DNA from: Stentor roeselii
Lineage: Eukaryota > Ciliophora > Heterotrichea > Heterotrichida > Stentoridae
DNA: 40,122 bases
Direction: 5' to 3'
Assembly: GCA_006503475.1 (NCBI GenBank)
Contig: RSEH01000346.1
Coordinates: 1-40,122, forward strand
Below the pieces are notes generated by a model. That model was not told where the DNA came from. It was given only the letters and a program-made list of their open reading frames with translations, and did no database searches. The position numbers and the translations under genes are program-made. The stretch's first letter is position 1. Every line of letters begins with the position of its first letter. This document shows positions 3,538 to 40,122 of the stretch, piece by piece.

Positions 3538-3558
3538 GACTTTTACATTAACTACTTC

Positions 3559-7872: not shown

Positions 7873-8084
7873 TGTTTATTATGGTGGGTGTTTTTTTTCT
7901 TGATGTTGAGAAATTTTAGAGGTTTTTAGATAGTTTGGGTTTTTAGAAATTTTTAGAGTTTTTTAGATGCTTTATGGATTTTTAGGATTTTTTATTGTTT
8001 CAGGAATGAGGATCGAGATTTTTGTTGTTCTCATTTTTTTTCTTTGATAATTCAATTATATCTGGAATTTCGAGTTATTAGAAT
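7873..8084. promoter_or_regulatory. divergent spacer with T-rich degenerate repeats
   Basis: This 212-bp spacer separates the divergent NAA60-like and coiled-coil genes and must hold both promoters. It consists largely of short degenerate repeats of the type TTTTTAGAxxTTTTTAGA between about 7900 and 8000. These resemble, in word content, the repeats at 27340-27650. No discrete factor site can be named. Confidence 0.35.
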
Positions 8085-17789: not shown

Positions 17790-19077
17790 CAATCCAGACA
17801 TAGTCGATCAAATCGAGTTCAACAGCACTGAACTGTTCATAATAAAGATGAGTATTGTTATAAACGACGAGTCTTCCATATCCATAATCATTAGACCAGT
17901 ACTGAGCCCAGTCCTGTGGCGTAGGACTAGTCGGGTCGTTATGTCCTTCATAGTTCCCCGCGTTTCCATTGGTGATATAAACCGGAGCCTTGGGCCCGAC
18001 ATGCACATGAAACGAGTCACTCTGACTGGGAACTGAAAAATTTTTATAAATGGCGACGTCCCTTTCATAATTATGAACATGAGCCTGGACGTACAGGTCG
18101 ACTCCATTCTCGTAAAAAACGTCTTCTAACTCACTCTGAAGCATCAAAGAACTCACACCACAGTCCGTGTTGCCCTTCAGCAAAGGAATGCGCCAGTTGA
18201 CTGAACAGTACAAAGGATGATGACTCAGAACTACAAGCCAAGGCCTCAACTCACGGTTTTTGTTCGCTTTTTCAAAGTCGTTTAAAAGCCAGTTCATCTG
18301 AGTTATCCTCGTCGCGTTTGTACTGTCGAAATAAGCTTCTGTGTTCATCATCACGAAATGTGCAGGGCCCATGTCGAATGAGTAGAAGTAGTTTGTACCG
18401 TTGTTTGCATCGTTCAACGGCATGTAAAACCTTTCTTTGTAATGGGTGAAGTTCGCGTGGCCTTCGTGGTTACCTGGAAGAGTCATGTAGGCGTAGTTCG
18501 CTGATACTGGCTCGATTATTCTTAGCCACTCGTCTCCTACTGTCCCGTTGTTCGTGTGAAGGTTGTAGGCGAAGTCGCCGATGTGAAGTACACCGTCAAA
18601 GTTACGGATTTTACTTTGCTGGCTTAGCAGGTGACGTGTGAATTGCCCGTTCGGTCCTGTTCCCCAGTCTCCAAGAACAATTAAATCTATCTCACGAGTA
18701 TCGAAAGGGGCTTCATAATCTGGCGTCCTTCCAGAGAATAAAAAGATATCAGACCAGAAGATCCCGTTTCCGACTTTGTACTCATAAAAGCAGTCACTTC
18801 TAAGTCCAGTCATTATCCCTGTATGAATGTACTGGATAATTTCAACAATACCTCCCTCATTAAATGCCTTAGAATCCCCTTCAACAAACTCCCAAGACGT
18901 AGGCGAAGTTATATCCGAGCACAGTATAGTTCTAAAAGCAATTCTAGAAATGACAGGCCAAAAAGTAACCCAAGTCGCCCTCATTTCATTTTCGTTTTCA
19001 GTCCAGGAAAGCCTAATCTGTTCGGGATAGAGATACCCAGCATAAGTCCCAACAACAATCAAGCAAAAAACAATCAT
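17758..19077 (-). CDS. purple acid phosphatase (metallophosphoesterase), secreted
   Basis: A 439-residue secreted or lysosomal enzyme. A signal peptide is visible (MIVFCLIVVGTYAG), followed by a fibronectin-III-like N-domain (RLSWTENENEMRATWVTF) and the catalytic domain. All five metallophosphoesterase blocks are present: GDWG (Asp137), GDFAY (Asp168 and Tyr171, the tyrosine giving the purple Fe(III) complex), GNHE (Asn203), LSHHPLYC (His286/287), and AHVHNYER (His333 and His335, where AHxH replaces the plant GHxH). Multiple N-glycosylation sequons occur. The layout resembles animal/plant high-molecular-weight PAP (ACP7-like). It hydrolyses phosphomonoesters at acid pH. It is convergent with and overlaps the TMEM43-like gene by 32 bp, and is divergent from SEC24 across 121 bp. 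Confidence 0.93.
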   Translation of the reverse strand: MIVFCLIVVGTYAGYLYPEQIRLSWTENENEMRATWVTFWPVISRIAFRTILCSDITSPTSWEFVEGDSKAFNEGGIVEIIQYIHTGIMTGLRSDCFYEYKVGNGIFWSDIFLFSGRTPDYEAPFDTREIDLIVLGDWGTGPNGQFTRHLLSQQSKIRNFDGVLHIGDFAYNLHTNNGTVGDEWLRIIEPVSANYAYMTLPGNHEGHANFTHYKERFYMPLNDANNGTNYFYSFDMGPAHFVMMNTEAYFDSTNATRITQMNWLLNDFEKANKNRELRPWLVVLSHHPLYCSVNWRIPLLKGNTDCGVSSLMLQSELEDVFYENGVDLYVQAHVHNYERDVAIYKNFSVPSQSDSFHVHVGPKAPVYITNGNAGNYEGHNDPTSPTPQDWAQYWSNDYGYGRLVVYNNTHLYYEQFSAVELDLIDYVWIVKTQNRYNDE

Positions 19078-19198
19078 AATTATAAAAACACAAACCCATT
19101 AATCAGTTTCATTGAATATTCACCATTTCTTATAAAAAGGTTTTTTTCGTTTCTCTAAATTTTTTATTCCATGTTTGCCATTTCGAGCAACTTCATAA

Positions 19199-21592
19199 AT
19201 GTCTGAGCCTGGACGACTTCCGCATTTGCAACGACCTTTATATCAGAACCCGGAACCTTCTGCGGGCCAAACAGCACAAGCTGCCCCCCGCCCTGTTCCG
19301 AGAGAACAAAAAATACAAACCGAGAGTCTTCCACGGCCTTCGATGAGGTTTGATGAACGTGAGCCTACTTTTACGAGCACTGGAATATTACCACCTCCTG
19401 TTGACTCGATCTTCAATGTGCATGAACAAGGGGTTTCTAATCCCCGTTTTTTACGTTTCACTCAGAATGTTATTCCTCTAGATTCTTCTTCTTTGCAGAA
19501 TTGTGGACTACCTTTGTGTGCTCTTTGGCAACCTTTAGCGGATCTTCCTGATGATGATGAACAGGTGATTCGTTCAGACTCACTTCCATTCCGCTGCAGC
19601 AGATGTGGAGCCTACATAAACTTTTTCTTTAAATTCGTGGAATCAGGAAGAAAACTCGTATGCAACATCTGCGGGATGGTTTTGGACACTCCCGAGTTTT
19701 ACCAGTCAGACAGAGCAAACAAGTCCGAGCTTCACAACGGTACCTACGAGTTCAAAGCGCCATCCGAATACTCAAACCGTCCATCACATCCTCCATTGTT
19801 TTTATTCATCGTTGACATCAGCACCAGCGGTGTAGAGCTTGGCTTAATGGCGCAGGTGGTTTCTTCAATTCAAGCAATTTTAGACTACCTTCCCCATCCT
19901 GAAAGAACCAACATCGGAGTGATGGCCTTCGACATAGGAATCCATTTGTTTAGAGTCAACTCTTCAGGGGAGTTGATTGAAGTCATTGTTAACGACATTG
20001 AAGACCCTTTCATTCCTGACTCGCCTCAAAGTGTTTGCTTGAATGTGAAGAATAATCGAGAGGAACTTGATTTAATGCTTGCAAAACTTGTTAGTACGGA
20101 ATTTAAAGGAACTTCTAAACTTTGCCTTTCACCCGCTGGAGTTGTTTTTGCTGTCAAGCAGTATTTGTTGAAGGCTCGCGGAGGGAAAGTTTTGATTTTT
20201 GCTTCACAGGCAGGGGGAAGTGGAAAAATGGCACTGGCGTCGAAGGTGGATACTAAGTTCATTAATACAGAAAAGGATAAAGGGTATCTTCCTGCTGAGA
20301 ACTTTATCAACTTGGCACATGAATGTTCTGCTGAAGATGTTTCTGTAGATGTTTTTGCTTGTGCTCACCAGCCAATAAACGCTTCCAGTTATGCTGCACT
20401 CTGTTCCTTAACAGGAGGCGATTTTTACCATTTCCCAGCATACCGTCCAGAAGCCGACGGAGAAAAAGTTTACTATTTAATAACCCGTATCCTAACCCGT
20501 GTTCAAGGCACCCAAGTAATGATGCGAGCAAGATGTTCCAACGGTTTATCAGTCGACTACTACATCGGGAAGTTCAAAAGAAGAGGACCAGTCGAAATGG
20601 AAATTGCATCAATCGACGCTGATAAGACTTTGGCAGTGGTCATCAAGTATGATGAAAAACTAAACGAGTCAAACGATTATTACGTCCAATGCGCGATGCT
20701 TTACACTGACTTCCATGGAAACCGAGTGATTCGAATTTGCAATGGAAAAATCATGGCTTCTAAAAATTCAACTCTTGTTTTAAAGTCTGCAGATGTCGAT
20801 GCTTGCAATGCTGCATTTTTAAAAATCAGTGCAAATAAAGTCTTTGAATCCAGTTTAAATGAAATCAGGGATAATTGGCATTCAAGTATAATTAAAGTCC
20901 TTATTACTCATAGGACTAATCTTGGGGATCAGGACTTTTCGAAGATACTAGTTCCAGAAACATTGAGACTTTTACCTTTGAATTGTAATTGCTCGTTAAA
21001 ACTTCCTGGACTTACAGTTCAACATGTTCCAACAGATATTCGGTTAAGTTCAATTCACCAAATCCTCGGCCTTCCCCTTTACCAAACAAAACTTCTGTGT
21101 TACCCAAAGCTTTACTCCCTTCACGACCTAGAAGACCAGACTCAAATGCCAGGTACTTTAAACAATGAAAATTTAGTAATTCTTCCAAAGCTTATAGGAT
21201 CTTCTTTAGAATTTCTGAAGTCCTCAGGAGTTTACCTTCTAAACAACGGAGAATTTTTAATGCTTTTTATAGGAAAAGAAGTAAGTCCTAATTTTATTCA
21301 ACAAGTTTGGGGAATCGAGTCTTTTGAAGACCTTTTTGAAGCGCCGGACTATTGGCCTCTTGGTGATCAAGGAAATAAATTAAGTCAGAGGGTGTTAGCA
21401 GTTGTTGAAGAAGTTAGAAGACGGAATCCTGGGAGTTACTCGCCTCTTCACTTTTTCTTTGAAGGACATTCAGATTCTGCGTTGATTAAGAAGTTCTTGT
21501 TGGAAGATAACAACTCTGCTGAACTCGCTTATGGAGACTTCTTGATGAGGCTGCATAAGGTCGTCGTTAATAAAATGCGGAAAGACTCTTAA
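19199..21592 (+). CDS. SEC24: COPII coat cargo adaptor Sec24
   Basis: A 797-residue Sec24. The N-terminal 60 residues are Pro/Gln/Arg-rich and disordered, as usual. NPRFLRFTQNVIP near residue 81 leads into the zinc finger with Cys133, Cys136, Cys155 and Cys158 (CSRC...CNIC). The trunk (von Willebrand-like) domain follows from about 195 with LFLFIVDISTSGVELG and VLIFASQAGGSGKM. The beta-sandwich begins near MRARCSNGLSVDYYIGKF. The helical domain and a C-terminal gelsolin-like domain close the protein (SSGVYLLNNGEFLMLFIG near 670-690). It is shorter than many Sec24 proteins (about 900-1,100) because the disordered N-terminus is short. It pairs with Sec23 to select cargo at ER exit sites. The start has the ATAAATG context; the stop lies 14 bp from the convergent pyruvate kinase stop. 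Confidence 0.95.
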   Translation: MSEPGRLPHLQRPLYQNPEPSAGQTAQAAPRPVPREQKIQTESLPRPSMRFDEREPTFTSTGILPPPVDSIFNVHEQGVSNPRFLRFTQNVIPLDSSSLQNCGLPLCALWQPLADLPDDDEQVIRSDSLPFRCSRCGAYINFFFKFVESGRKLVCNICGMVLDTPEFYQSDRANKSELHNGTYEFKAPSEYSNRPSHPPLFLFIVDISTSGVELGLMAQVVSSIQAILDYLPHPERTNIGVMAFDIGIHLFRVNSSGELIEVIVNDIEDPFIPDSPQSVCLNVKNNREELDLMLAKLVSTEFKGTSKLCLSPAGVVFAVKQYLLKARGGKVLIFASQAGGSGKMALASKVDTKFINTEKDKGYLPAENFINLAHECSAEDVSVDVFACAHQPINASSYAALCSLTGGDFYHFPAYRPEADGEKVYYLITRILTRVQGTQVMMRARCSNGLSVDYYIGKFKRRGPVEMEIASIDADKTLAVVIKYDEKLNESNDYYVQCAMLYTDFHGNRVIRICNGKIMASKNSTLVLKSADVDACNAAFLKISANKVFESSLNEIRDNWHSSIIKVLITHRTNLGDQDFSKILVPETLRLLPLNCNCSLKLPGLTVQHVPTDIRLSSIHQILGLPLYQTKLLCYPKLYSLHDLEDQTQMPGTLNNENLVILPKLIGSSLEFLKSSGVYLLNNGEFLMLFIGKEVSPNFIQQVWGIESFEDLFEAPDYWPLGDQGNKLSQRVLAVVEEVRRRNPGSYSPLHFFFEGHSDSALIKKFLLEDNNSAELAYGDFLMRLHKVVVNKMRKDS

Positions 21593-21606: not shown

Positions 21607-23118
21607 CTAGTCCTCTGCTTCGTCTACTACTAGGATCTTCATTATGTTCGCCTTGTTGAAGTCAGTCTCTGACTTACCGTGAAGTGCGATGCAGACGTCT
21701 CCTGATTTTACTAGTCCTCGATTTTTAGCAACTTCGATCGCGTATCGGAGAAGGTTCTCGGTACCTTCGTATGATGGAACTTTTAGACTGAGTCCTCCTC
21801 TAACCAAAGTAGTCTGATTAATAGTAGACTGACTCATACTAACACAAAGAATCGGCATAGGTGGTACAAACTTAGAAACCTGCAAAGGAGTAAGTCCAGT
21901 ATCAGTGATAACAACAACCAGTTTCGCCTTAAGTTCCAGAGCAGTCTGAACACAAGCCGCAGCAACCGCTTCCGTCGTACTAAGTTCCCAAGGAATAGAA
22001 TCCCTAACCTTATAAAACTCCTGAGTATAATCAACACATCTCTCCGCTTCACAGCAAATCCTGGCCATAATTTCCAAAGCATTAAGTGGAAACTTTCCAT
22101 TAGCAGTTTCTCCACTAAGCATAACAGCATCAGTTCCATCTAAGACCGCATTCGCAACATCAGTAGCTTCAGCCCTAGTCGGTCTTGGATTATTAATCAT
22201 ACTTTCAAGCATCTGTGTTGCAGTGATAACCGGTTTTCCATACATTTTACAGACCTGAATCATCATTTTCTGTGCCAAGAAGACCTTTTCAGGAGGAATT
22301 TCCATTCCTAGGTCGCCTCTGGCGACCATAACTCCATCAGTAGCTTTAACAATTTCTTCAAAGTTTTCAAGTCCTTCGCCATTTTCAATTTTACTGATTA
22401 TCTTGATATGTGCGCCTCTTGGTCCTAAAATATCTCGAATTGTTTCAACGTCGTTTGCCTTTCTCACGAAACTAGCAGCGATGAAGTCGACGTTGTACTT
22501 TAAGGCAAAGTTCTCTAAATCGTCCTCGTCTTTTTCAGTGACTGTTGGAAGGTCGACGTAACATCCAGGAAGACACATGTTTTTTTTCTCTCCGAGGACT
22601 GCAGAGTTTTTTACTTGCACTTTAATCCAAGTGTCGCCGATTTCAGTGACGTAGGTTTGGATGTTACCGTCGGCGATTAGAACTGAACCTCCTACTTTTA
22701 CTGTTGTTGGAAGAGATGGGTAACTACAAGCAATTTGCTCGGAATTACCGTGGAAGGAGTAGTCTGTTGTTATTGTTAGGATCTGGTCGGCTACTAGGTT
22801 CACGTTTGCGTGGTTTTCTAGAAGACCTGTTCGGATTTCAGGACCTTTTGTGTCTAGCATTATTGCACAGGATTTCTCTGGACGTTGCTTGTTTGCTTCT
22901 CTTATCATTTTTACGGCTTCGCCGTGACTTGCGTGGTCGCCGTGCGAGAAGTTGAGACGGGCAATGTTCATCCCAAGATCAAGCATCTTAACAATCGTCT
23001 CAACTTTCAAGCAACTAGGTCCCATGGTGCAGACGATTTTAGACTTTCGACTATTAACATCAATATCTCCGATCCAGTCTTGTAATTGAAGTACTTTCCT
23101 CCTGTACCTTCGATCCAT
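21607..23118 (-). CDS. pyruvate kinase
   Basis: A 503-residue glycolytic enzyme converting phosphoenolpyruvate and ADP to pyruvate and ATP, full length for the family (470-530). Visible parts: SKIVCTMGPS and NIARLNFSHGDH near residues 26-60; LDTKGPEIRTG (about 93-103), where Asp and Thr are K+ ligands and the Glu marks K+-dependent enzymes; the B-domain cap (VLIADGNIQTYV); KIISKIENGEG (about 238-248) with the catalytic Lys and metal-binding Glu; MVARGDLGMEIP (about 263-274) with the second metal ligand; ATQMLESM and NPRPTRAEATDVANAV; and the C-domain ending GDVCIALHGKSETDFNKANIM. The start codon lies in TATAAATG, in a 187-bp divergent spacer. Confidence 0.97.
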   Translation of the reverse strand: MDRRYRRKVLQLQDWIGDIDVNSRKSKIVCTMGPSCLKVETIVKMLDLGMNIARLNFSHGDHASHGEAVKMIREANKQRPEKSCAIMLDTKGPEIRTGLLENHANVNLVADQILTITTDYSFHGNSEQIACSYPSLPTTVKVGGSVLIADGNIQTYVTEIGDTWIKVQVKNSAVLGEKKNMCLPGCYVDLPTVTEKDEDDLENFALKYNVDFIAASFVRKANDVETIRDILGPRGAHIKIISKIENGEGLENFEEIVKATDGVMVARGDLGMEIPPEKVFLAQKMMIQVCKMYGKPVITATQMLESMINNPRPTRAEATDVANAVLDGTDAVMLSGETANGKFPLNALEIMARICCEAERCVDYTQEFYKVRDSIPWELSTTEAVAAACVQTALELKAKLVVVITDTGLTPLQVSKFVPPMPILCVSMSQSTINQTTLVRGGLSLKVPSYEGTENLLRYAIEVAKNRGLVKSGDVCIALHGKSETDFNKANIMKILVVDEAED

Positions 23119-25402: not shown

Positions 25403-25405
25403 ATG
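25392..25405 (+). promoter_or_regulatory. TATATATAAATG start-codon element of NF-YC
   Basis: The sequence TATATATAAATG spans the end of the upstream coding region and the start of NF-YC. It is the longest example of the TATAAATG string seen at several start codons in this window. Since there is no spacer, any NF-YC core promoter must lie within the upstream gene. Whether it acts as a TATA element, an initiator or a translation context cannot be told from sequence. Confidence 0.45.
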
Positions 25406-25777
25406 GAAGAGTTTGATGAGAAAAAAGACTTTTGGACATTTAATGAAGAACTGGAACAGGCACTTGATGGACTTGTTCACTTGCAAAAAGAAGAAATCAA
25501 AAGATTGGCCCCTGGTGAGTTCAAAAATCATCAACTTCCTTTAGCTAGAGTCAAGAAAATCATGAAAACTGATGAAGATGTTAAAATGATCTCTTCTGAA
25601 ACACCTGCACTTTTCGCAAAAGCTTGTGAATTGTTTATTATTGAAATCACTAGAAGGGCATGGGTTCATACTGATGAGAATAAAAGAAGGACTCTGCAGA
25701 AATCTGATGTCGCTGATTCCATTCATAATACTTTGATTTTTGATTTCTTGGTTGATGTGATCAACCCTGGCAATTAG
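25403..25777 (+). CDS. CCAAT-binding factor subunit NF-YC (HAP5), histone fold
   Basis: A 124-residue minimal NF-YC. After a short acidic leader containing FWTFNEELEQALDG (NF-YC: FWxxxxEEI), the histone fold runs from about residue 44 to 120: QLPLARVKKIMKTDEDVKMI, then SETPALFAKACELFI, then RRAWVHTDENKRRTLQKSDV and FDFLVDVI. These match NF-YC far better than the DRAP1, POLE3 or CHRAC relatives. It dimerises with NF-YB, then recruits NF-YA to bind CCAAT. Its start codon follows the neighbour's stop directly. That could mean a shared transcript, or a promoter inside the preceding gene. The stop is TAG, followed by the 67-bp repeat array. Confidence 0.93.
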   Translation: MEEFDEKKDFWTFNEELEQALDGLVHLQKEEIKRLAPGEFKNHQLPLARVKKIMKTDEDVKMISSETPALFAKACELFIIEITRRAWVHTDENKRRTLQKSDVADSIHNTLIFDFLVDVINPGN

Positions 25778-27671: not shown

Positions 27672-29234
27672 CTAAAGAATATCAGTGAATTCCAGCTGAC
27701 ATCTCGAGTATAGTTTAAAAGACGTGATTGCATGTTTTTTTAATTCTTGTTGTCTTGCATGATTCTGTATAATTACTTTTAATTTAGAAATCGTCAGATT
27801 TCTCTTATTTGCATTTTGCATCCATTTCAACAAACCCACATTCTGAAGGTTTATTCTAGTCTGATGAGCTTGAATTAATTGAATTACAACAACCCTTAAC
27901 TTCTCATTTTTGCTATAAGGCAGTTTAAACTCTTCCAAGTCAAGAGTATCATCTCCAAAAATAACAACTCTGATATTTTTCCTCCAAATTTTCCAATAAT
28001 TCCTCAACTTCCTCATTAAAATATGACTTAAATTTCTAGCCAAAGTTTTATTCACTTTATTATCCTCGTAAAAGTCAAGTAAAACCAGAGGTTTATTCAT
28101 GATACTGAAACCAACCCGTTCTTTACTCACAGTGATGACAGTTTCTTGATACTCGTATTCAATTTGAAGATTTTTCCATTTTTTCACAGCGTTTTTAAGA
28201 GTTTTTCGCAGAGAATGGCCGAGGTTTCTCAAATGAGGTTTTAATGATAAAAGTCTGAACTGTATCTGATAGTAAAGCGAAACCTGATGTGCATTTTCTT
28301 TAATTAATGCAAAAGACGGCGCTAAGTGTTTATAAATAAATTTTTTCAGTCCTTGGAATTTTTTTTTTAGTTTTTTCTTGAACTGGTATTTTATCAAGGA
28401 CTTACTACTGCATCTGTAAGAGTTTTCAGGAGATGTGCTTAATAATGACTGTAAATTTAAAGAAATCAAAGACTTCCACTGGTCAAATTTTTCTTTTAAT
28501 AAGTGAAAGTACCTTAAATTTGAGTTAAGCGCCAAGACTCGCAGTAAGTTGCTGTCTTCTTGAAGACTGCTCACTTTTCCATTCTTTGTTTCTTCTAAAA
28601 CTATTGACCAGGTCCAAAAAGCTCTTTGTTCTAAATTCACTCGGCCTTTTAAAATCATTTCTCGAATTGATGATAATTGCAACTTTTTTATTTGGATTGT
28701 CGTCTTAAATCTTCTTGTTCGAAAATGAGTTTTTCGCATCAGACGACTGAAGATTTCGTTGTAGGTTATGTAAATTCGAGACATTAGGATTCGGATCATG
28801 CTCGACATTGGACGGGTTAGTTTTAAGTATGTCTGGAAGCTCATTGGAATTGTTTCTGAGAGAACTTGAAGACTGAGCTTTTTAAATGTTAACTGAATTT
28901 GACGCATTGCTAGGAATTGTAAATTACTGAACAACAAAATTCCTCCTCTTGCGAAGTTATAATGGTTTTTAGCTGGTGTTGTGAACAAGTCCAGGTCCGT
29001 TGGAGGCTCTGGCATTTTTCCTTGAAGTAAACTCTGAGCGAATTTAATATATTCTTGAAGATGATGACGAGGGTAAATCTCAGAGATTTCCTTCGAGTTC
29101 AGGATGATTATCGCTTTTATTAGGTCTTCATCTGAAGCATTGTAAAACCAGTCGTTTATGGCTTTACGATGAGGACTCGATATTAATTTAACGAGGTTTG
29201 CAAAGGTTTCAATTGACTTCAATATTATCCTCAT
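27672..29234 (-). CDS. Trp-repeat, possibly Sfi1/centrin-binding-like protein
   Basis: A 520-residue, very basic, helical protein. From about residue 205 onward, short helices ending in a Trp pair or single Trp recur at irregular spacing: RAFWTWSIVLEE, KFDQWKSLISL, AVKKWKNLQIEY, KLRNYWKIWRKN and GLLKWMQNAN. This resembles the degenerate Sfi1 repeat (hydrophobic-x7-L-x-x-F/L/W-x-x-W), which binds centrin. The spacing is not strict, so the family is only suggested. The N-terminal 130 residues contain a folded-looking part (NDWFYNASDEDLIKAIIILN). No membrane segment is evident. Heterotrichs have centrin-based contractile fibres, which makes a centrin-binding role worth considering, but it is not shown. 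The start lies in TATAAATG. Confidence 0.5.
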   Translation of the reverse strand: MRIILKSIETFANLVKLISSPHRKAINDWFYNASDEDLIKAIIILNSKEISEIYPRHHLQEYIKFAQSLLQGKMPEPPTDLDLFTTPAKNHYNFARGGILLFSNLQFLAMRQIQLTFKKLSLQVLSETIPMSFQTYLKLTRPMSSMIRILMSRIYITYNEIFSRLMRKTHFRTRRFKTTIQIKKLQLSSIREMILKGRVNLEQRAFWTWSIVLEETKNGKVSSLQEDSNLLRVLALNSNLRYFHLLKEKFDQWKSLISLNLQSLLSTSPENSYRCSSKSLIKYQFKKKLKKKFQGLKKFIYKHLAPSFALIKENAHQVSLYYQIQFRLLSLKPHLRNLGHSLRKTLKNAVKKWKNLQIEYEYQETVITVSKERVGFSIMNKPLVLLDFYEDNKVNKTLARNLSHILMRKLRNYWKIWRKNIRVVIFGDDTLDLEEFKLPYSKNEKLRVVVIQLIQAHQTRINLQNVGLLKWMQNANKRNLTISKLKVIIQNHARQQELKKHAITSFKLYSRCQLEFTDIL

Positions 29235-29637
29235 TTATAAATTTTAAATGAAGTGATTTCTATAACGATAGAGGAAGAAAATTAGCCTTTTTCCTTGTGC
29301 AGGTACTAAAAGCTAATGTATTCTAGAAGGTTAGTATGCCCTTTAATTATGCTTATTTTATTATAAAATCTTTAGAATTTTTATTTCAGATAAATTATTG
29401 GAAACGTGTTTTGCCTTCGTCATAAAACTTAAGGTTTGTTGATTTTTCTCACTCTTTTTTTGGTGTTGGGAAATTTACCATCCATAGAAAATTAATTATT
29501 TGATGTTTAAAATAATTCTTTACTTTTTAATCATAAAACTTAAGGTTTGTTTATTTTTCTCACGTTTTTGAAGTTGGGAAATTTACAACCAAAGATTCCC
29601 TAAACATCAAAATCTAATCCTTTTGTTACTTATCTAA
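29235..29637. repeat. spacer with a 58-bp direct repeat
   Basis: This 403-bp spacer carries two copies of a block starting CATAAAACTTAAGGTTTGTT and ending GTTGGGAAATTTAC. The copies lie at about 29421-29478 and 29532-29587, some 110 bp apart, and differ by a few bases and a small indel. The second copy ends close to the 3' end of the secreted-protein gene. No gene is seen. Confidence 0.75.
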
Positions 29638-29988
29638 TTAAGAAACGTAAAGAATAAAGGCAAGGGTCGCAAGAGGTTCTCCGCTATGAGCATTTCCAAC
29701 TCTTGTTTCAGTTAAAAAGAAAGAATAAGTCTCTCCAGATTGGCATGATCTCTTGCAAGCCACATGGAAAAACTGATACCCATCAGCAATTGAGTTACCA
29801 ACATCAATGAATAACAAATCCGGGTCATTTGAATCCGCTTGCCAGGGATGCCCATCCTTTATTTTCATTTTGAACCAAGTACTACTACCTCTTGGTAGTA
29901 TTAGAGGCTCCTCGTTGATATCAATGGCACTAGAGGGGTTACCATTGACAACTAGACAAATCAAGAATAGAGCAAGAATAGCTTTCAT
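29638..29988 (-). CDS. small secreted protein, unrecognised
   Basis: A 116-residue protein with a textbook signal peptide (MKAILALFLICLVVNG, cleavage probably before residue 20). The mature part is about 95 residues, mostly beta-like, with a single Cys pair (HVACKRSCQSGE) that could form a small disulphide loop. Its overall plan of alternating strands ending in an ATLAFILYV strand recalls small beta-sandwich inhibitors of the chagasin type, but the NPTTGY and RPW loops of that family are absent, so I do not assign it. It is probably secreted or vesicular. Spacers of 403 and 627 bp isolate it on both sides, which is unusual here. Confidence 0.65.
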   Translation of the reverse strand: MKAILALFLICLVVNGNPSSAIDINEEPLILPRGSSTWFKMKIKDGHPWQADSNDPDLLFIDVGNSIADGYQFFHVACKRSCQSGETYSFFLTETRVGNAHSGEPLATLAFILYVS

Positions 29989-30615
29989 TTTTATATCAGA
30001 ATAACCTAAACAGAAAAAATTTTTTTATGAGTCTCTTTGGAATCGATTATTTTGTGAAGGTAAAGTTTTCAATTTTTTAGGGAATTTTAGAATTTATCTT
30101 GGAATTTGATTTTTTTTAGATTACTTTGACTTATTCATCAGGAATAGAGGAAGAATTTTTATTCGAGTTAGAAATTATTTAAATTATTTTGAATATTTTT
30201 AGGATTACTTAAATTTAGGGAGTAATGAGAGTCCTAACTATTCCATCAATCCAAAACCAGCTTACTAAAATATTAAGAAATAAGCACAAATCTGAAATTC
30301 TCATTATGCCACAGTTTTCATATTCTTATTTCAGTTAAAAGATCGTATAAATCTATTGATATCACAAAATTATTCTATAAGTTATTTTAAATAATAATAA
30401 TTTCCAAATAATCCTCCAATATAATTGAAAACAAATCAAAGAGATTAAATCATCAAAAAGCATCCAATAATATTTAATCTTTCCTTTAACAACCACTCAA
30501 TTCTTAAATAATTAAAAATTAAAACCTTCCCTCTAACTTTTAGATAAATTCTAAATGATTCTACTTAACCCTAAACAAAAACTTTATAAAGCTTCTCTAT
30601 ATCTTTATTTATTCA
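29989..30615. other. AT-rich divergent spacer
   Basis: This 627-bp spacer lies between the divergent secreted-protein and DHHC genes and contains both promoters. It is T-rich on the left and A-rich on the right, with no open frame and no repeat array. No specific site can be named. Confidence 0.4.
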
Positions 30616-32268
30616 ATGGAAGATGTAGCAGAAGTTAAAGCCAACTTAATTATCGCAATTCAAACGAACGACCTGATAACATTTTCGAGTACCCTCGAGA
30701 AGCTAAAAATTCCTTTAAATGAAGTGTTTGATTCTCAAGGCTACACAATTTTCCATGATTTAAGTCCTTGCATGATTCCTGAATCAGACCTTTTGGGTTT
30801 TTTCACTGTTCTAGAAAATTACAAGTTTTGTGATTCTGAGGCACTTAGACAGTATTTGAACATGCAAACATTTACTGACAGACAAACAGCTCTTCATGTT
30901 GCTGTCAAGTATAATAGAAGAGTAAGGGTTAAGTAGAGACTTGTTAGAGAGTTTGTTAGAATTGGGGTAGATATTCGACTGAAAGATAAAAATAGTCACT
31001 CGGCTTTTCATGTTGCTGCAATGACTGGCAAGGTTGCATTGATGGTTTACTTAAAAAACTGCGGACTTCCCTTCGACGAGCAAGACGAAGCAGGTAGGAC
31101 CCCTCTCCATCTTTCCATATTAGAAGGAGAGACCTCTTCAGCCCTTTGTCTAACAGCGTGGACCTCAGACATAAACCTAAAAGACAAAGAAGGCCGAACC
31201 GCTTTGCACTACTCAGCAATGAGCGACAGTTACCGAGTATCCCGTCACTTACTCTTAAAAGGAGCCGACAAGTCCTTAAAAGACAATCAAGGCCAAACAG
31301 CAGAAGACCTCTCAAACCTAAAAGGCAGTTCAGATATCAAAGCCCTTCTAGTAACACCCACTTAGAACTCAGAAAAGATTTGTTTAACACCCTGTAAACA
31401 TCGAGTCCTTTCAACAGAAAACTCTAACAAACACATAATCGCTTACATTATTTTATTCCTCGGAAGGTCAGGCCTGATTGTTTTAGTCCTTTGGCCTGAG
31501 CTTGGCCTGGCCTTGATCTTCACAAGTCTTGCTTTTTTAATCCTCGGGGCTTTTCTCTTCGTCCTCGTCAGCGTCAAGGACCCGGGGTACCTGAAAGGCG
31601 AAGAGGGTGACGATCTGTATGAAACTTACCGGCCTGAGTACATCTGTCACTACTGCAAAGTCATTCAAAGGAAAGACGTGAGACACTGTCACTCTTGTCA
31701 TCGATGTGTAAAGGTATCAGGTACTTAGGACTTTGACCATCACTGTCCTTGGATACATAATTGTGTTGGAGAAAATAATCATTCATGGTTTATTCTTTTT
31801 CTTACTGTTTGCTTGGGTGACTTTTTGTATCATTTTCTTGTTGGAGTTCTTGATTTTTCTAAAGCTTTGAAACAGGATAGGGTTATTGATAGGATCGATT
31901 TGAATAGACCTGCTTCGAGTCTTGTCTTGGCTCTTTTTTGTCTTTTTGGGGTTTTTTTTGTATTGCCTTTGTGGTTTCTGCAGATTTCGAATCTTGTTCA
32001 GAATACAACGACTAGCAGGAGATTCGCTTTTGAAGTGAAGATGGGAGAACAGTGCTCTGAGATTTTAAATGAAAGGATCATGATGTTACCGGAATCTGAT
32101 GGGTGGATTAGTAGAAAAGTTAGTCATGAATTGAGTTATAGGATTGAAGGGAAAGAGGACTCGTGTTGTATTAGGAAAAAAGAAAGGGGTAGGGTTGATA
32201 TTAATAATACTAGTATTGCCTATTTGGGGTTAGATTTAGGTTTTAGGGATTTTTTATGGGATTTATAA
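30616..32268 (+). CDS. ankyrin-repeat DHHC palmitoyltransferase, three 15-nt introns
   Basis: A spliced gene: 30616-30921, 30937-31350, 31366-31713 and 31729-32268, encoding 535 residues. Ankyrin repeats occupy about 85-235 ([42 protein letters not shown]). Two transmembrane helices follow ([30 protein letters not shown]). The zinc-binding Cys-rich domain is [20 protein letters not shown], ending [18 protein letters not shown], with the catalytic Cys of DHHC intact. Two more helices follow. This is the zDHHC13/17 (HIP14), Akr1 layout, although the tail lacks the usual TTxE motif (NTTTS instead). It S-palmitoylates membrane-associated proteins, usually at the Golgi. All introns carry in-frame stops and the third lies just before DHHC. 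A decayed copy lies at 38000-38960. Confidence 0.92.
30922..30936 (+). other. 15-nt spliceosomal intron
   Basis: The sequence is GTAAGGGTTAAGTAG, with A at position 10 and an in-frame TAG. Removal joins KYNRR to [10 protein letters not shown] and completes an ankyrin repeat. Confidence 0.92.
31351..31365 (+). other. 15-nt spliceosomal intron
   Basis: The sequence is GTAACACCCACTTAG, with A at position 10. Removal joins SDIKALL to [10 protein letters not shown] between the ankyrin block and the first transmembrane helix. In the pseudogene copy the equivalent string (GGAAAAGCCACTCAT) has lost both splice ends. Confidence 0.92.
31714..31728 (+). other. 15-nt spliceosomal intron
   Basis: The sequence is GTATCAGGTACTTAG, with A at position 10. 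Removal joins HRCVK to DFDHHCPW, so splicing is needed to make the catalytic motif. The pseudogene keeps a spliceable-looking counterpart at 38484-38498. Confidence 0.95.
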
Positions 32269-32579
32269 GAATTGTTTGGTTTATGAAATTTTGTGAATTT
32301 AAGAAGATTTATGTGTTTACTTAAAGAGTTTTAGTAAATTTAGAGGAACTTTGACTCTTTTTTATAAAGATTTTTTATTACAAGCGATAATATTTAGGGT
32401 AAGCTACATGATAGATTATTTAGTTAGTTCTGTTTGAATTCAGTTATTAAAAGATTGAATTTTTAATCATAGATCATAATCGTCTAGTTAGATACTAAGT
32501 TGCTTATCCAATAAATATCCTTCCTTAGAGATTTGAGACTTTATAAAAACTATTTAATAACTAATCCTATCTAATAATA
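32269..32579. other. convergent spacer, no gene seen
   Basis: This 311-bp AT-rich spacer lies between the DHHC and Cys-rich genes. Its last 80 bp (from about 32515) align with the 80 bp before the paralogue stop at 39613, showing that the duplicated segment includes the 3' flank. Confidence 0.5.
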
Positions 32580-35500
32580 TTATTTTATCCCAACTTTCGT
32601 AATATCTCGGATTCTTTTAGATTTTTTATTGCAAGCTTTCCTAATAAGATCTTTCAGTGATTTCATCATAATGATAAAAGAAAAGAAATAATTCGAACCA
32701 AAGCAAGACACTAAAGCAAAAATAAAGATATCGTTGAATGTATCTTCACTCAAAATATTAGGACTCAAAAACATGACTAACATTAAAATGAAAATGCACA
32801 TAATAACCCCTTCTGTAATAATATTGGATATCAATATAATTCTATCTTTAAAAGGTCTTACAATAAGTAAATACAAAAACATTATCGTTGAGCATGATAA
32901 ATTTATTGACCTTTGAAGTAATGGATAACCATTCAAGTGCACTTGAGAAAATGCAAAGGCAAGTCGATACAAAGTATATAAAGGATAATAAAGCATGAAT
33001 TTGAATCCTCTGTCCTGATGAAATTCTGTTATAAGTGATGAAAATCTACCCACAAACAATTCATCTCTTGACAAGTGAATTCTATCATAATTGATGAACG
33101 GCAAACCAGTAATAATCAAAGGTGTAACTAAAAAGAAAATCTAAATAAAAATTACAAGATAAAGCTCAGCGATGTACTTTGAAACAAAATAACCTTGCCC
33201 TCCATCATTCGAATCCTTTCTAGAAATTACAGAACGGTTGCTAATAAGAGCATAAACTCCAAAGCTCAAGTATGATTCAATCCAAAACCTGATAAAAACA
33301 TCATATCTATACTCATGAAGCTTTTCTTTTAATTTCAAACTGATTTTTCCAATCTTCAGTAAAGATATAAGATGTATGAAAGGAGCTAAGAACAATATTC
33401 CAATAAATATTGTAATTTCTACTCCAATATTCAATAAAAACACTGAAGATTCTATTCCTATTCTCTTTGCTTGGCGAGAAGGAAGAGATGAAATGTTCTT
33501 GTCGATGAATTTTTCAAATAAATTAGGTACCAAGTTGAATGAGGTTATTGCATTGCAGTATTCAGTCATGGTAGGGGTAAGAGTATCATTCGCTAGAGGA
33601 AGGTATGAAACAAACTGAATAGTATTGATCAGAGCCCAAGCTGCTGATGGGTTAGAAATGATAGACATTGATATGGAAGTTGAACCTGCTGACTGACTTG
33701 CACCTTTCGTTTTTGATATCACTTTCTTCATTTCTGGTTTTATATAGATGTTCTCCATCAGTTTTATTTCGTATTCTAAGCTAGAAAGTGTTTCATTTGA
33801 CACACTATGTAGGTTTCTGGTGAATTGAAGAAAAAGAATTGTACCTTCTTCAACATACTCTTTAAATTTTAAGGATATAACATATTCTGATTCTGAAACA
33901 TTTTTGAAATCAAATGAGTATTTTTTCAAGGACATAACCAATTTTATATCTGATAAGGCTAGGGTCGTATTGAGAGGTGATTCGAAATTTAAAAATAGTT
34001 TATTATTTGAATTGACTTTAATATTCAAGTCGAAATAAGAGAGAATGCATATGCTACCTTTCAAAGTATAACCATAATCACATACACATATCTTTCCATT
34101 TAATATTTGATGCTCTATACATGATAGACAATATATCTCATAATCATTTTTCTTATCTTCAATACAATTTTTACAGTTTTCAGGGCATTTTTCACAATTT
34201 AAATTTTTTGTCATATAGTATCCTTGTATGCATACACATTTTCCATCATTTAATACTGAATTATTAATTGCACATTCTTTGCAAACTTCTAATGATGTAC
34301 AATCTTTACAGTGATACGGACATTTTAGACAATGATGGCCATTTTCAAGGTTACCATAAAATCCCTTTGAGCATCTACATCTTCCTGTATCATCCAAGTA
34401 AGAATTCCTACTTTTGCATGAAGTACAATTTTTTGGATTGTCACACTTCATACATTCATCTAAGCATTTCACGCATCCTGTTTTGTCTGAGTAAAATTCA
34501 AATTCGATCGGGTCATTTAAAAAGTAACCATCAATACAATAACATCGATTCTCTTCTGGTAATTCATTTCCTAAGCATTTTGTACAAATTTCCCCAGAAG
34601 TGCACTCAGAACACTCAATTGGGCAAGGTTTGCATGAGTTGAGTAGGACTGGATTGTTCTCTGCATAATATCCTTGTTTGCATACGCATCTTTGTGTTAA
34701 ATCAGGTGCAGCCAGAGGGTCTTCACACGAAGTGCATGAATTACCATACAAGCACGCTTCACACTCATCTAGGCATTTCGTGCAATGAATATATATATTA
34801 AAATAAATAACATCATTAAAATAGCCTTTCTTGCAAGTGCATAGGTTGTTTTTATAAAGAGAATTAATATCATAGCAACTTGAACATTTTCCACTATTTG
34901 TACAAGAACATCCTGATGCACAACAACCACTTCCTGACTCTAGACACTCAAGAGGTGCCTTCAAAAAAATGTTCTTATTATATTCAATACAATAAGCAGA
35001 GCCACTCAAATCACTCAAATCACTCAAATCAATAGAGCAGGAATTTGAAGGACATAAACAGGTAGTATGTTGATTTATATCTGTTGTTGTCGTCGAAACG
35101 CAGCCTATTCCAAGTTCATCAAGTTTCATTGCGGGTTCACAGTTGCAAATTCCAACATAACAAGAGCTAGAAAGTCCAGAATCTATATAATTCAAATATT
35201 GGTCTGACCCTGTAACTATTACGAAATACCACATGTAAAAATTTATTGCTTGATACACAAAGTATCCTATGTTAGAATTGATGCATGGACTGCTGAAATT
35301 TAATGAGGATGGTAATGCACTTGTATGTTTAGTAATCAAATTTTCTCTGAAAATAAAATTGAGACTATTTATTTCATATGAGATTAGAGTCCATTGATCT
35401 AAATAATTCTTACTAATAGGAATCGCATCGGTTGTGATCGAAAACAAAGATTGTCCATGCATTAACCAAAGATGATAACGGTTTGGATTGTCTCTGTGAA

Positions 35501-35840
35501 TACCTATATTATAGGAAGAAGTAATCGAAGAAATATGAACAAAAATCTGTCCGACCATATTTTCCATGCTTATCCAAAAAAGTATAGTGAAAGTACTTGG
35601 AAGGGTATAGGAAGTAGAAATTTCATTAGGAGGGAGTGTAATCGTGTTTTGGGGATTCATATAAAGACCTCTGTCTGTAATCACTGTATCTCTTGTTGAA
35701 TCAGCAATAGAAACTCCATTTACCCCATGCCTGCCATTCAGTGAATAATCAAATATCACCTGTCCAAAGTTTTTCCAAAATTTATACTCGACTAGCTTTT
35801 GCCCTAAACAAGCAGCTATCAAGAATAAAACAACAGCCAT
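32580..35840 (-). CDS. LamG-like / Cys-rich repeat / multi-TM surface protein, one 15-nt intron
   Basis: A spliced gene (33156-35840 plus 32580-33140) encoding 1,081 residues. A signal peptide (MAVVLFLIAACLG) precedes a LamG/concanavalin-like domain at about 20-220 (FTILFWISM). Residues 227-600 are Cys-rich, with about six furin/GFR-type units of the form CxxCxxxCxxC...CxxC...CxCxxGY, for example CLDECMKCDNPKNCTSC and CRCSKGFY. An extracellular beta-rich stretch (600-710) leads to a C-terminal membrane region with several helices (near 800-830, 852-868, 888-912 and onward to 1,060), including MFLYLLIVRPFKDR. The tail is Lys/Arg-rich and cytosolic. Its function is unknown; the layout recalls alveolate cysteine repeat modular proteins and the large Cys-rich membrane families of ciliates. 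A partial paralogue begins at 39613. Confidence 0.8.
33141..33155 (-). other. 15-nt spliceosomal intron
   Basis: On the minus strand the sequence is GTAATTTTTATTTAG, with A at position 10 and an in-frame TAG. Removal joins AELYL to IFFLVTPLIITG in a transmembrane helix and adds 186 conserved residues that the paralogue also keeps. It is identical to the intron at 11974-11988. Confidence 0.92.
35005..35036. repeat. 9-bp tandem repeat inside the Cys-rich gene
   Basis: Three copies of a 9-mer (plus strand CACTCAAAT) encode DLS-DLS-DLS at about residue 272 of the Cys-rich protein. The repeat is in frame, so unit number can vary without breaking the gene. Confidence 0.75.
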
Positions 35841-37999
35841 TTATTATTTAAACTTTATAGACATATTTGTATACCTAAGAATTTTTTTCAATAGATAAAC
35901 TCTAATAAAGAATAACAAAAATTGATTATTGCAGTTTTCTGTTTTGTATTTTTGTTGATATTTTTGGAAAGACAAATATTTTATCTTCAAAAACCTTTAG
36001 AGATACCACTGAAGAAGAATAAAAGCTGCAGGACATCTTATCTGGCCTAATATATGTTGCTATTCAAAGTTTGAATATAGTAAATCTGTATTTAATATTA
36101 TAGACAATTAAAGTTTCAGAAAATGGTCTTCGGTTACTAATCTTATCATATCATGGAACACCTATTTTAACTAAGCTTTAACTAAATTCATCATCTACTT
36201 AAACGATTTTTAATTTGGAATGGGAATTAGATAGAGTAAAGCGCTCTTCTTTAAAGAGGTCTAGAAACATTCAGGATTATGCAGATACAAATCTAGAGAT
36301 TTTACTTCTTTGATCATATTTCACCTAGGTTTTCAATTTATTTAGTTCTTTTCGCTTGATTGCTTTAGTTTTCTTTGTTTTCAGATGATCAAGAACCTGT
36401 CTTCTTTGAATGAATTTAAATTCTAGATGTATTATCAAAGAGATAATTGCTCAGCGATAATCAAGAGCATCTAAAAACATGATTCTGAATGTATTGGTAT
36501 TGTCTTCTCGCTTTTCTCTGGTTTATAACCTTTTTTATGAAATTTCCTTAGTTTTTTAAATTGTCTACAGGTTCTTCTTTTGAGAAATTCAAAAATCTTA
36601 ATGAAATAGAGTCAATCTTCATCGAGACTATTTAACTACACTAATTAAAAACATCTATAAATCACCAAGTTTCTCCTGAAGTCAATATTTATGATTATAT
36701 AGAGTGGAATAGTTCTACAACTAACTTTATTAGAAAATGAGCTCAGTTTTAGCTTTCTTACTCTCAATTTCATAATAAAACTTCGGAAATGCTTTTATTT
36801 ACCATAGCTTCAGCATTTTGAATTAGTTGAGTTAAGTATAAGTAATGTAAAAATGGTTTATCTAATGATATAATAATCTGTTTGAATATAATCTAATTCT
36901 TGAGTTTTCGACTTTATTTTACAACCTTGGGGAAAATTAGGGTTATATTATAAAGAGATAGGATATAATATTATATTTTACATGAGTAAAGTTGAATGTA
37001 AATAGTTTGACGGTAGTCTTTATAGATTATTAATGATTAGCTTCATCGTTTCTTTCAAAATTAATATTGATTGATTTTTATTTACTTAGAATATTTCTGA
37101 TAGCGATTATTCATTTTTTTTGAAGACCAGAGAACTTCATTTCAACGAAAACACCTTTCTTGAATCAGAATTAAAGTATTGAATGTAAATTTTACAATAA
37201 TAATTTTGATTAGGTCTTAGAATTTACTCAAATAATCCAAAAACTTATCTAAAAATATTGAAATACACTAGAGCAAATTTTAGGCAAATTAATCACAAAT
37301 CATATTTAAAGAAGCTACATCGAATCTTCATTTAAACTTTAGAAGCTTATCGAAATTGAGCATCTATTCATTTATGGTCAAACAATATCAGAACTTATTT
37401 CAGAATAACTTTAGCTCATAAGATTTTCTCCAATAAACTTTGATTGAAACCAAGTTATTTCCTGATGAGAGTCCAATCTGATCTTATCATTAACAAACTA
37501 TCTAGTTACTTTTCTATAGAATAATATTTAAGGTTGAACTCAGTAATCTTCTGTTCAGAATATGATCAAACGGCCTTTGGAAAGTCAAAATAGAGGTTCC
37601 ATGATGACACTTATATAAAAAGTACTTGTGTGAAGACAAATGTGTCTAGGGATGCACTTTGTTGGGGATTCTGCATGTTTGTAAGAGTCTGGCTTTTAAA
37701 ATTAGTAGACTTTAACTTGTACTGTAATTAAAATAGTTCTTATAATTCTTGGATTTAGATTAAAAGTTAATTTCTATCTGAAATGAACTGATTGCTATAA
37801 GAAGTTCAAGTAAAATTACTTGAAATTTGATTTTAGATTCTATCTCTTAAGAAATGTTGATTTTCTCTTTGTCCCACTCGATTTATTATTATATTAAGAT
37901 CTGCATGCACTGTGATATTCAGGGATGCACTCAAAGTTAAAGCTTAAAAATCTAATATAAAGTTTAGTAAGATTATAACTCAAATCTAAAAATTTTCAT
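35841..37999. other. 2.2-kb gene-free AT-rich region
   Basis: This is the longest stretch without a callable gene. Frames are short on both strands. It separates the Cys-rich gene start from the DHHC pseudogene and probably includes the lost 5' part of that pseudogene (expected at about 37,370-38,000) and the Cys-rich promoter. An 11-mer (AGGGATGCACT) occurs at 37648 and 37921. No tRNA, transposase or tandem array is seen. Other decayed genes cannot be excluded. Confidence 0.5.
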
Positions 38000-38960
38000 A
38001 AAAATCCAGCTAAAAATAAACACTTTATCGATAATAATTCAGTTACAACAATAAAATTTACTTCCCCAAAGCATTATTTTTAAAAGCATAAAATCGAGTT
38101 CGAAATCTTCAAACCTGGTGCAATAAAAGGCAGTTAAATGATTAAGACCTGCTAGGAAAAGCCACTCATAAACGAAAATTCTTAAAAGCGTGTAAATGTT
38201 AATACGTTTAACTTAAATACAAACAATCATATAATTGTTTACATCTTTTTTTTATAGGTAGATCAAGTCTGATCATTTTTATCTTTTCTGAAATCGGTCT
38301 CACCTTAATCCTGACAATTCGAATTTCCATTTTTAAATTTTTTTATGTGCTAGTAAGCATTAAAATGTACTTTTAGGCAATTAACATGTGCTCATGACTT
38401 ACGGCCTAATAAAATCTCTCATTACTGAAAAGTGAATAGAGGAAAGATATTGGAATTGCCGTACTTTTCATGGATGATTAAAGGTATCAACTATGCAGGA
38501 CTTTAGCCATCACTATTCAGATAAAAAAATTAATTAATTAAGGCATCATTCCTGGTATCTCACTTTTGCATATACAAACTTTTGTTTCATTTTTTTCAAA
38601 GGGCTTGATTTTCCAAAAGTTTATCAATGAATGTCGATTAACAGCCTTGGATTGAATCGGCATGTTTTAAGATTGGTTCTGTCTCTTTGTTGTCAGGTCT
38701 TTTGTTTGCCATTCTCTCTGATTTCTACAGATCTCGAATGGTATTCAAAATAATAATACTCGCAAGTTATTCGTTTTTGAAGTAAAGATAGGAGATTCTG
38801 TTCTGATATTTTAAATGAAAGGAGCTTGATGCTGATGGAATTTTACAGATGGGTTAGTCGCAATGTAAGTAATGATTGAGTTATAGACTTGAATGTTAGA
38901 GGCCTATTGCTGTGTAAGAAGGTTTATTATAAGTAATAAGAGCCTTCTGTGTTAAGAATT
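38000..38960 (+). pseudogene. decayed copy of the ankyrin-DHHC palmitoyltransferase gene
   Basis: This segment aligns by eye, over almost its whole length, with about 31230-32200 of the intact DHHC gene. It includes the last ankyrin repeat (AAAGGCAG at about 38126), the two transmembrane helices (38230-38350), the Cys-rich domain (38397-38483) and the C-terminal part (38680-38930). Inactivating changes are plain: a zinc-binding Cys codon TGC has become TGA in ATTACTGAAAAG, the DHHC string reads like SHHY, the middle intron has lost its GT and AG ends, and indels follow DHHC. One 15-nt intron still looks spliceable. The 5' half is not recognisable. It has no long open frame, so it is a pseudogene rather than a divergent paralogue. 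Confidence 0.88.
38484..38498 (+). other. relic 15-nt intron in the DHHC pseudogene
   Basis: The sequence GTATCAACTATGCAG corresponds to the third intron of the intact gene (GTATCAGGTACTTAG). Length, GT, AG and A at position 10 are kept, while five other positions differ. It sits directly before the GACTTT codons, as in the intact copy. Confidence 0.8.
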
Positions 38961-39612
38961 TCATTTTAAAATTCTTCATGTGTTTAGAGTAAAGTCATTA
39001 TTAAAATTGAAGAGATTTCTGCATTTTAATTAGATGAATAATGATGATATTGTTGATGTGTCTTTGAATTTTATGTTTAACCAAAGAATTTTTTATCAAT
39101 AACGATTTCATTTGATCTGGTAGATCATTTGTTAAGTTCCATTTTAATACACTTAATTTTATATTTAATTTTTCAATCTGATAATGAGCATTCCTGGTTC
39201 GATACTATGCCTAGTTATTTTTTAAAGTTAAATTATTTATTGATCTTGAAAAATAATCGGCATTAATTAGATGATAGGATTATATTTATAATTATAATCT
39301 TAATCTTATTTCAAGTACGAAATCCTCATTTCAGAATAATATTTCTTGGTTTTGGTTAACATAATATAAAAAGAATACTTTTAAAGTAAAATTAAATAAA
39401 ATTATGTATTAATACCATAAATTTTAATCGTCATAAGTTAAATCCTATCTTATATTCATATCTTATCTAAACCATAAATTTCATTAAAATACAAAAATTA
39501 AAAATTCTAGCCATAGACCAAATAATTTGAAAGCCACTCACTGAATGAATGCCCTTTCTTAGTTACTAGACTTTTTATGAAATATTAAAATAACTATTCC
39601 TAACTAATAATA
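38961..39612. other. AT-rich spacer between pseudogene and paralogue
   Basis: This 652-bp spacer is the counterpart of the 311-bp spacer at 32269-32579 and about twice as long. Only its last 80 bp align clearly with the first copy (ending TAATAATATTATTTTAT). No gene or repeat array is visible. Confidence 0.45.
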
Positions 39613-40122
39613 TTATTTTATACTAACTTTCGAAATATCTTGTACTTTATTGGATTTTTTATTGCAAGCTTTCCTAATAAGATCTTTCAATGATCTCATC
39701 ATTATCATAAAAGAAAACAAATAATTTGTACCAAAGCAAGACATTAAAGTATAAATAAAAATATTGTTGAATGTATCCTCACTCAAAATACCAGGTCTCA
39801 AAAACATGACCAGTATCAAAACGAAAATACTCATAATAACCCCTTCATTAATAATATTTGATATCAATATTATCCTATCTTTAAAAGGTCTTACAATAAG
39901 TAAATACAAAAACATTATTATTGAGCATGATAAATTTATTGACCTTTGAACAACCGGAAAACCATTCAAGTGCACTTGAGAAAATGCAAAGATAAGTCGA
40001 TTTAAGGTAAACAAAGGATAATAAAGCATAAATTTGAATCCTCTGTCCTGATGAAATTCTGTTATAAGTGATGAAAATCTACCCACAAACAATTCATCTC
40101 TTGACAAGTGAATTCTATCATA
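39613..40122 (-). CDS. paralogue of the Cys-rich multi-TM surface protein, C-terminal part
   Basis: The gene is cut by the window end; at least 170 codons of its 3' exon are present and open. The frame runs from the last base (YDRIHLSRDELFVGRF) to TAA at 39613 and matches the C-terminus of the first copy residue for residue without gaps, with about 27 changes in 164, most of them conservative. The four hydrophobic helices, the VRPFKDR motif and the basic tail (KDLIRKACNKKS) are all kept. Absence of stops or indels, beside a heavily decayed DHHC copy, suggests that selection has maintained this gene. Its ectodomain lies beyond the window. Confidence 0.85.
   Translation of the reverse strand, partial: YDRIHLSRDELFVGRFSSLITEFHQDRGFKFMLYYPLFTLNRLIFAFSQVHLNGFPVVQRSINLSCSIIMFLYLLIVRPFKDRIILISNIINEGVIMSIFVLILVMFLRPGILSEDTFNNIFIYTLMSCFGTNYLFSFMIMMRSLKDLIRKACNKKSNKVQDISKVSIK

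Follow-up and report, generated by a model that had tools for sequence, protein, structure and literature searches.

A tandemly duplicated DHHC-receptor block in Stentor roeselii: a decayed palmitoyltransferase copy without its ankyrin half beside the readable end of a Cys-rich receptor-like gene

A partial tandem duplication that cuts a neighbouring gene leaves a truncated, decaying copy of that gene beside the intact one. One of the two genes concerned here encodes an ankyrin-DHHC palmitoyltransferase; such proteins, which we take to be of the HIP14/Akr1 type, have ankyrin repeats before the DHHC domain. The other encodes a Cys-rich multi-TM protein, which we compared with the surface antigens of Paramecium. 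According to PMC9788069, the Paramecium genes encode Cys-periodic proteins and include recent intrachromosomal duplicates, some members at chromosome ends, and a pseudogene where an alternative chromosome end may lie. The family described below, likened by description, resembles them in its duplicates, chromosome-end location and dead chromosome-end piece, and by eye perhaps in Cys periodicity. The Paramecium antigens are mostly GPI-anchored while the receptor studied here has several hydrophobic C-terminal stretches, and only the Paramecium members with TM domains, of unknown function, form a comparable group. For Stentor coeruleus, PMC9505925 gives the standard genetic code and introns of 15 nt in 92.8%, with a GUA start and a branch A at position 10. 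For Blepharisma, PMC9942806 gives CCCTAACA telomeres, 15-16-b introns and UGA read as Trp.

The window, that is the whole stretch of DNA analysed here, is all of contig C283 (40,122 b), and the genome searched was the 44.39-Mb assembly of 522 contigs. The putative introns of the window are 15-mers with a GTA start, an A at position 10 and a TAG end, and 15-mers of this type were found in 20 of the 26 sampled loci of the receptor family. The search of the assembly for CCCTAACA telomere repeats gave 660 matches to paired units and none for the reversed control, and among the matches listed all places were at contig ends. Introns of 15 nt together with CCCTAACA telomeres fit a heterotrich ciliate, with patterns as in PMC9505925 and PMC9942806. 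There was no in-frame TGA in 25 TM regions of the receptor family, which argues against the Blepharisma code, and the genome is likely that of a Stentor-like heterotrich using the standard code. Positions 1-30100 of the contig are densely packed with ordinary genes, as follows.

412-3558, importin-beta-like
5790-6284, ribosomal L22p/L17e
7141-7875, GNAT acetyltransferase
11977-13698, PHM7/anoctamin-like channel
17761-19098, purple acid phosphatase
19199-21589, Sec23/24
21610-23118, pyruvate kinase
25403-25774, histone-fold protein

A small minus-strand frame with a hydrophobic start (29641-30024) matched no Pfam family at E <= 0.001; it may resemble chagasin-type inhibitors.

The first-pass annotation had described the DHHC-receptor block as tandemly duplicated 7.03 kb apart, and the measured offset between the receptor copies was 7,033-7,034 b. 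Comparison of 30,600-33,100 with 37,300-40,122, which it had proposed as a check, gave significant alignments for both genes: 39544-40122 matched 32510-33089 with 88.1% identity over 581 columns (receptor), and 38124-39207 matched 31319-32497 with 62.9% identity and an E value of 2e-78 (DHHC). The features of the block are the following.

30616-32268, plus strand, copy 1 ankyrin-DHHC palmitoyltransferase gene (Pfam DHHC and Ank_2), open without three 15-nt introns
30922-30936, plus strand, putative 15-nt intron 1 of the copy 1 DHHC gene
31351-31365, plus strand, putative 15-nt intron 2 of the same gene
31714-31728, plus strand, putative 15-nt intron 3 of the same gene, directly before the DHHC motif
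32580-35840, minus strand, receptor-like gene of copy 1, Cys-rich and multi-TM, encoding 1,081 aa
33141-33155, minus strand, putative 15-nt intron of the copy 1 receptor, with an in-frame TAG at the end of the 15-mer
34215-34693, minus strand, Cys-rich stretch of the copy 1 receptor, isolated on C98 and C186 and present twice in the C522 gene
35841-36179, no strand, 5' flank of the copy 1 receptor, with 80% identity to C356 at a chromosome end, telomere beyond
38080-39035, plus strand, copy 2 DHHC relic, counterpart of 31276-32308, ankyrin half missing
39544-39612, no strand, sequence flanking the copy 2 receptor on its 3' side, matching 32510-32579 at 80% identity
39613-40122, minus strand, C-terminal coding end of the copy 2 receptor (169 codons plus stop), truncated where the contig ends
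40031-40122, no strand, final 92 b of the contig, without a difference from 32998-33089

The copy 1 DHHC gene encodes a member of the palmitoyltransferase family and a predicted enzyme. It matched PF01529 with an E value of 1.6e-20 (73.9 bits, cut-off 28.7), its catalytic Cys is present, the DHHCPW motif lies in frame after intron 3, and ankyrin repeats (Ank_2, E 4.1e-16) lie ahead of the DHHC domain, likewise as in HIP14/Akr1-type enzymes. Its three in-frame TAGs are the 3' ends of GTA...TAG 15-mers with an A at position 10, and removal of these 15-mers left an open frame whose 1,602 b are a multiple of 3. Removal of the single 15-mer of the copy 1 receptor likewise gave the open frame of 1,081 aa, and the in-frame stops of both genes fit putative 15-nt introns. 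The closest other DHHC proteins among the matches listed were 32-39% identical to copy 1, so there is no further close copy among them.

The copy 2 DHHC gene had been described as carrying stops, indels and a ruined active site, and all of this was found. The best protein match of the relic contains 6 stops (3 TGA and 3 TAA), its active site reads SHHY where copy 1 has DHHC, and it has no open frame with the catalytic Cys. The alignment with copy 1 scored 211.5 (best of 200 shuffles, 26.5) with 69.5% identity over 940 aligned columns and 40 gaps, and two other scorings gave 38 gaps and 69-71% identity. The relic keeps GTA, A10 and AG at the site of intron 3 of copy 1. Its mismatch was 0.29, 0.24 and 0.37 at the three codon positions, which is the mix expected for one free and one constrained copy. 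Unlike HIP14/Akr1-type enzymes, copy 2 has neither the ankyrin part nor the catalytic Cys.

Homology between copy 1 and the relic begins at 31276 and 38080, respectively. Alignment of the ankyrin half (30619-31275) with 36181-38090 scored 16.0, when the shuffled mean was 15.7 and 90 of 200 shuffles scored at least as high as the real sequence. Planted ankyrin halves given the decay of the relic reached 92.5 or higher in all 200 simulations, and a harsher simulation (40% mismatch, 1.5x indels) gave a median of 50 and a minimum of 17; the simulation was slightly mild, simulated relics averaging 252 versus 211.5 for the real one. Searches of the opposite strand and with 29001-30618 gave no match of the ankyrin half or of the upstream region near copy 2. 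By simulation, a decayed ankyrin half would have been detected if present, and the duplication probably starts inside the DHHC gene. With no ankyrin half and no visible start, the second DHHC copy was probably dead on arrival. The first-pass reading that the enzyme died and the receptor lived thus holds for a dead DHHC copy and a readable receptor end, but an unequal fate of two whole genes is not supported, the DHHC copy having probably never been whole. The spacer between relic and receptor (39036-39543) is about 300 b longer than that of copy 1 (508 b vs 201 b) and is hardly alignable to it (weak similarity of 37.5 vs a shuffled maximum of 28.5).

The receptor ends were 84% identical in protein over 169 aa without a gap, close to the earlier estimate by eye of about 83% over 164 residues. 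The frame of copy 2, announced as intact, is readable over its last 169 codons, but these are only 169 of the 1,081 residues (about 16%) since the contig terminates at 40122, inside copy 2. Counting the stop codon, 57 of the 71 alignment columns of the 3' flank were identical. Complete identity of the last 92 b has a chance of 0.00065 assuming evenly spread mismatches, in a stretch that is also under protein constraint and lies at the contig end, the likeliest site of assembly error. A search with 30616-33100 gave 8 DNA matches in the assembly, and the receptor end was touched only by C283 itself and by C222 (67%). Joining copy 2 to another contig was tried and rejected: 33100-38300 gave 13 DNA matches, none a continuation.

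The term surface receptor is a guess from the hydrophobic start, the Cys repeats and the hydrophobic stretches of the translation. A Cys periodicity, perhaps regular, was seen by eye, and the family-average hydropathy peaks several times within the final 280 residues, which suggests TM anchoring. For family comparisons 26 loci were taken, 25 of which yielded more than 350 aa (L039 was shorter), and the alignment had 24 members; L032, with an in-frame TAA, was left out, as were the loci overlapping sampled genes (L016-L018, L022, L027 and the DNA loci). Exon 2 of copies 1 and 2 matched the C-terminal part of PF06011 (TRP), which we take to be the fungal TRP family of Flc/Pkd2 type, with E values of 1.3e-5 and 1.7e-5, but the scores (24.7 and 24.2 bits, and 18.2 for the longer region) are all below the cut-off of 28.5. 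Among the 24 members, 4 matched this profile at E <= 0.1 (best 2.6e-7) and 20 did not; a rescan of 7 TM regions at E <= 2 gave no match to it, and a profile search of PDB chains with the receptor TM region gave none at E <= 1. The family is perhaps distantly TRP-like. Exon 1 of the window receptor matched no Pfam family at E <= 0.5, and the ectodomain names Laminin_G_3 (0.016, one relative) and cEGF (0.019, another) were rejected, all being below cut-off. An NCBIfam scan of the family gave no convincing match, and a search of titles and abstracts found no publication describing it.

The last exon of the receptor was found at at least 150 places on at least 104 contigs, and all counts for this family are lower bounds. 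Sixty-two of these places lie within 10 kb of another, when 500 random placements on equal contigs gave a mean of 9.2 and a maximum of 25, and 27 of 35 neighbouring pairs are on the same strand. The family thus often sits in tandem, which fits the growth that had been proposed, but the accompanying habit of leaving relics of its neighbour is not supported: only 4 of 80 DHHC places (81 rows, the second row of the relic being dropped) have a receptor match within 10 kb, two of them the window pair, and about 5 are expected by chance from simple arithmetic. DHHC-receptor as a conserved pair was accordingly rejected. Eighteen of 30 receptor loci lie within 10 kb of a contig end (expected 23.5%, p = 2e-5), which may be a mere effect of assembly breaks.

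Pieces of the receptor were also found dispersed. A chromosome end on C356 (C356:185881-187109; L046:1501-2729) carries a broken N-terminal part, codons 1-268, with its 5' flank; telomere repeats follow some 350 b 5' of the start, the TGTTAGGG repeats beginning directly where homology to window position 36180 ends. Isolated, frame-broken fragments with the roughly 480-b Cys-exon stretch lie on C186 (C186:208477-208954; L047:1493-1970) and C98 (C98:2921-3399; L048:1500-1978), with sharp shared ends and unrelated flanks. These two fragments are 92.5% identical to each other, 82% to the window and 88-89% to the C522 gene (L032:1-835), which has the stretch twice in tandem. The receptor on C522:1-2478 (G000) is a mosaic, its Cys stretch having 79-81% DNA identity to the window and its last exon 28% protein identity, and members of the family look mosaic by such comparisons. 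The dead pieces on C356, C98 and C186 show that receptors die too.

Pairwise dN/dS was calculated by the Nei-Gojobori method (NG86, own script). The receptor pair had a dS of 0.223, a dN of 0.082 and a dN/dS of 0.37 (bootstrap 95% 0.21-0.69), and its changes at the three codon positions were 16, 10 and 26, a third-position excess (26/52, p = 0.009). It follows that the pair as a whole is constrained, which does not thereby show that copy 2 is alive. The first-pass annotation had named dN/dS of the receptor exon as a check, but this measure does not tell living from dead copies. Frame-broken fragments had values of 0.43 (C356; 2 frameshifts and 1 stop), 0.36 (C98; 4 and 3) and 0.53 (C186; 16 and 5), the readable C522 stretch had 0.38, C222 had 0.34, and intact tandem pairs on C345 (1,008 codons) and C216 (701 codons) had 0.48 and 0.35, respectively. 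The ranges of broken and intact pieces (0.36-0.53 and 0.35-0.48) overlap 0.37, and dN/dS was rejected as proof of life.

Two other results favour a living receptor copy. There was no indel in 507 b of copy 2, where about 10 were expected at the relic rate scaled by divergence (P ~4e-5), and amino-acid changes, assigned with C222 as outgroup, were 6 on the copy 2 side and 9 on the copy 1 side (12 unassigned), with no excess in copy 2. However, the broken C356 piece, compared with the copy 1 receptor (dS 0.21), has only 2 gaps in 803 columns and no excess of changes (9 vs 8), and at its gap rate 507 b without a gap are unsurprising (P ~0.3, simple arithmetic).

Comparison of the two genes showed that the third positions of the relic have diverged about twice as far as those of the receptor (108/289 vs 26/169, p = 4.4e-7; 25/138 and p = 5.2e-5 when the identical stretch is removed), although the gapped alignment of a decayed relic leaves its divergence uncertain. 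A single event for both genes, as first supposed, does not fit this difference, which implies either that the receptors were homogenised later or that there was a second event. The receptor 3' flank, 80% identical, is nearer to the receptor dS than to the relic (flank vs relic, p = 0.06). On C356 the 5' flank is 79.6% identical over 343 columns, in agreement with a dS of 0.21, and synonymous and non-coding rates are therefore alike there.

We lean, by a little, towards a tandem duplication of about 6.8 kb that cut the DHHC gene and was followed by exchange between the receptors. The head-to-tail unit would have held the whole receptor but no more of the convergent DHHC gene than its 3' part, with a left breakpoint near 31276 and the junction near 38080. 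The complete DHHC gene would have stayed in the left copy, and the right copy would have received a useless piece without start and ankyrin half that decayed immediately. The receptor, lying inside the unit, would have begun whole in its new copy. Later exchange, by gene conversion or unequal crossing-over, would have run leftwards, starting at the contig end and reaching into the spacer, and made the receptors look younger than the relic. The missing ankyrin half, of which the search found no trace and which the simulation could have detected, points to a breakpoint, and the identical last 92 b, the third-position difference, the 80% identical 3' flank and the mosaic members of the family were counted for exchange. 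Had the ankyrin half been deleted later, the picture would be the same as after a breakpoint, and we infer a breakpoint, as we do conversion in preference to a second duplication. The other 84% of the copy 2 receptor presumably exists; 36180-38080 and 33100-34200 have no high-identity copies elsewhere in the assembly, so the rest of the predicted copy is unseen, which counts against this account, as does the weak similarity left in the spacer.

Two separate events, in which a younger receptor copy came to lie beside a DHHC relic that was already old, would also explain the twofold difference in divergence as well as the longer, barely alignable spacer, and receptor pieces with a dS of about 0.2 do occur elsewhere (C356). 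We consider this unlikely, as relic and receptor repeat the order and convergent orientation of copy 1 and independent events must reproduce both. It is quite unlikely that the duplication took in the pair as a whole and that the DHHC copy later died while selection kept the receptor copy. The receptor end without indel or stop, its third-position excess, its dN/dS and its rate of change, no faster than in copy 1, all agree with such a history, but the ankyrin half is missing from copy 2, the two halves differ twofold in divergence, frame-broken fragments have equal dN/dS, and the broken C356 piece also has few gaps and no excess changes. An assembly origin of copy 2, as a divergent allele or a collapsed repeat put at the contig end, is highly improbable: the contig does stop within a repeat, in 92 b of identity, and the family does lie near contig ends, but coding divergence of about 10%, along with a 30% diverged relic on one and the same contig, exceeds what an allele of a gene that is still intact would show.

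The duplication and exchange that we favour would be ordinary in kind. Compared with truncated flanking pseudogenes in general, no departure was found in the window, where the right boundary is hidden by the contig end. Finding a relic next to an intact copy does not have to mean that selection chose between two genes, since a breakpoint within one of them looks alike, and pairwise dN/dS of young copies fails to show which one lives, dead fragments having given equal values. We hold it very doubtful, though worth stating, that the Cys-rich family is a recombining surface repertoire whose members swap stretches, with the dead pieces on C356, C98 and C186 as donors; dead pieces serve as donors in the antigen systems of parasites, and here the same idea would apply to a free-living cell. 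With its at least 150 matches, its tandem clusters and its telomere-capped and dispersed pieces, the family is a candidate for a variable surface repertoire in a giant cell that lives freely, and would merit study as such.
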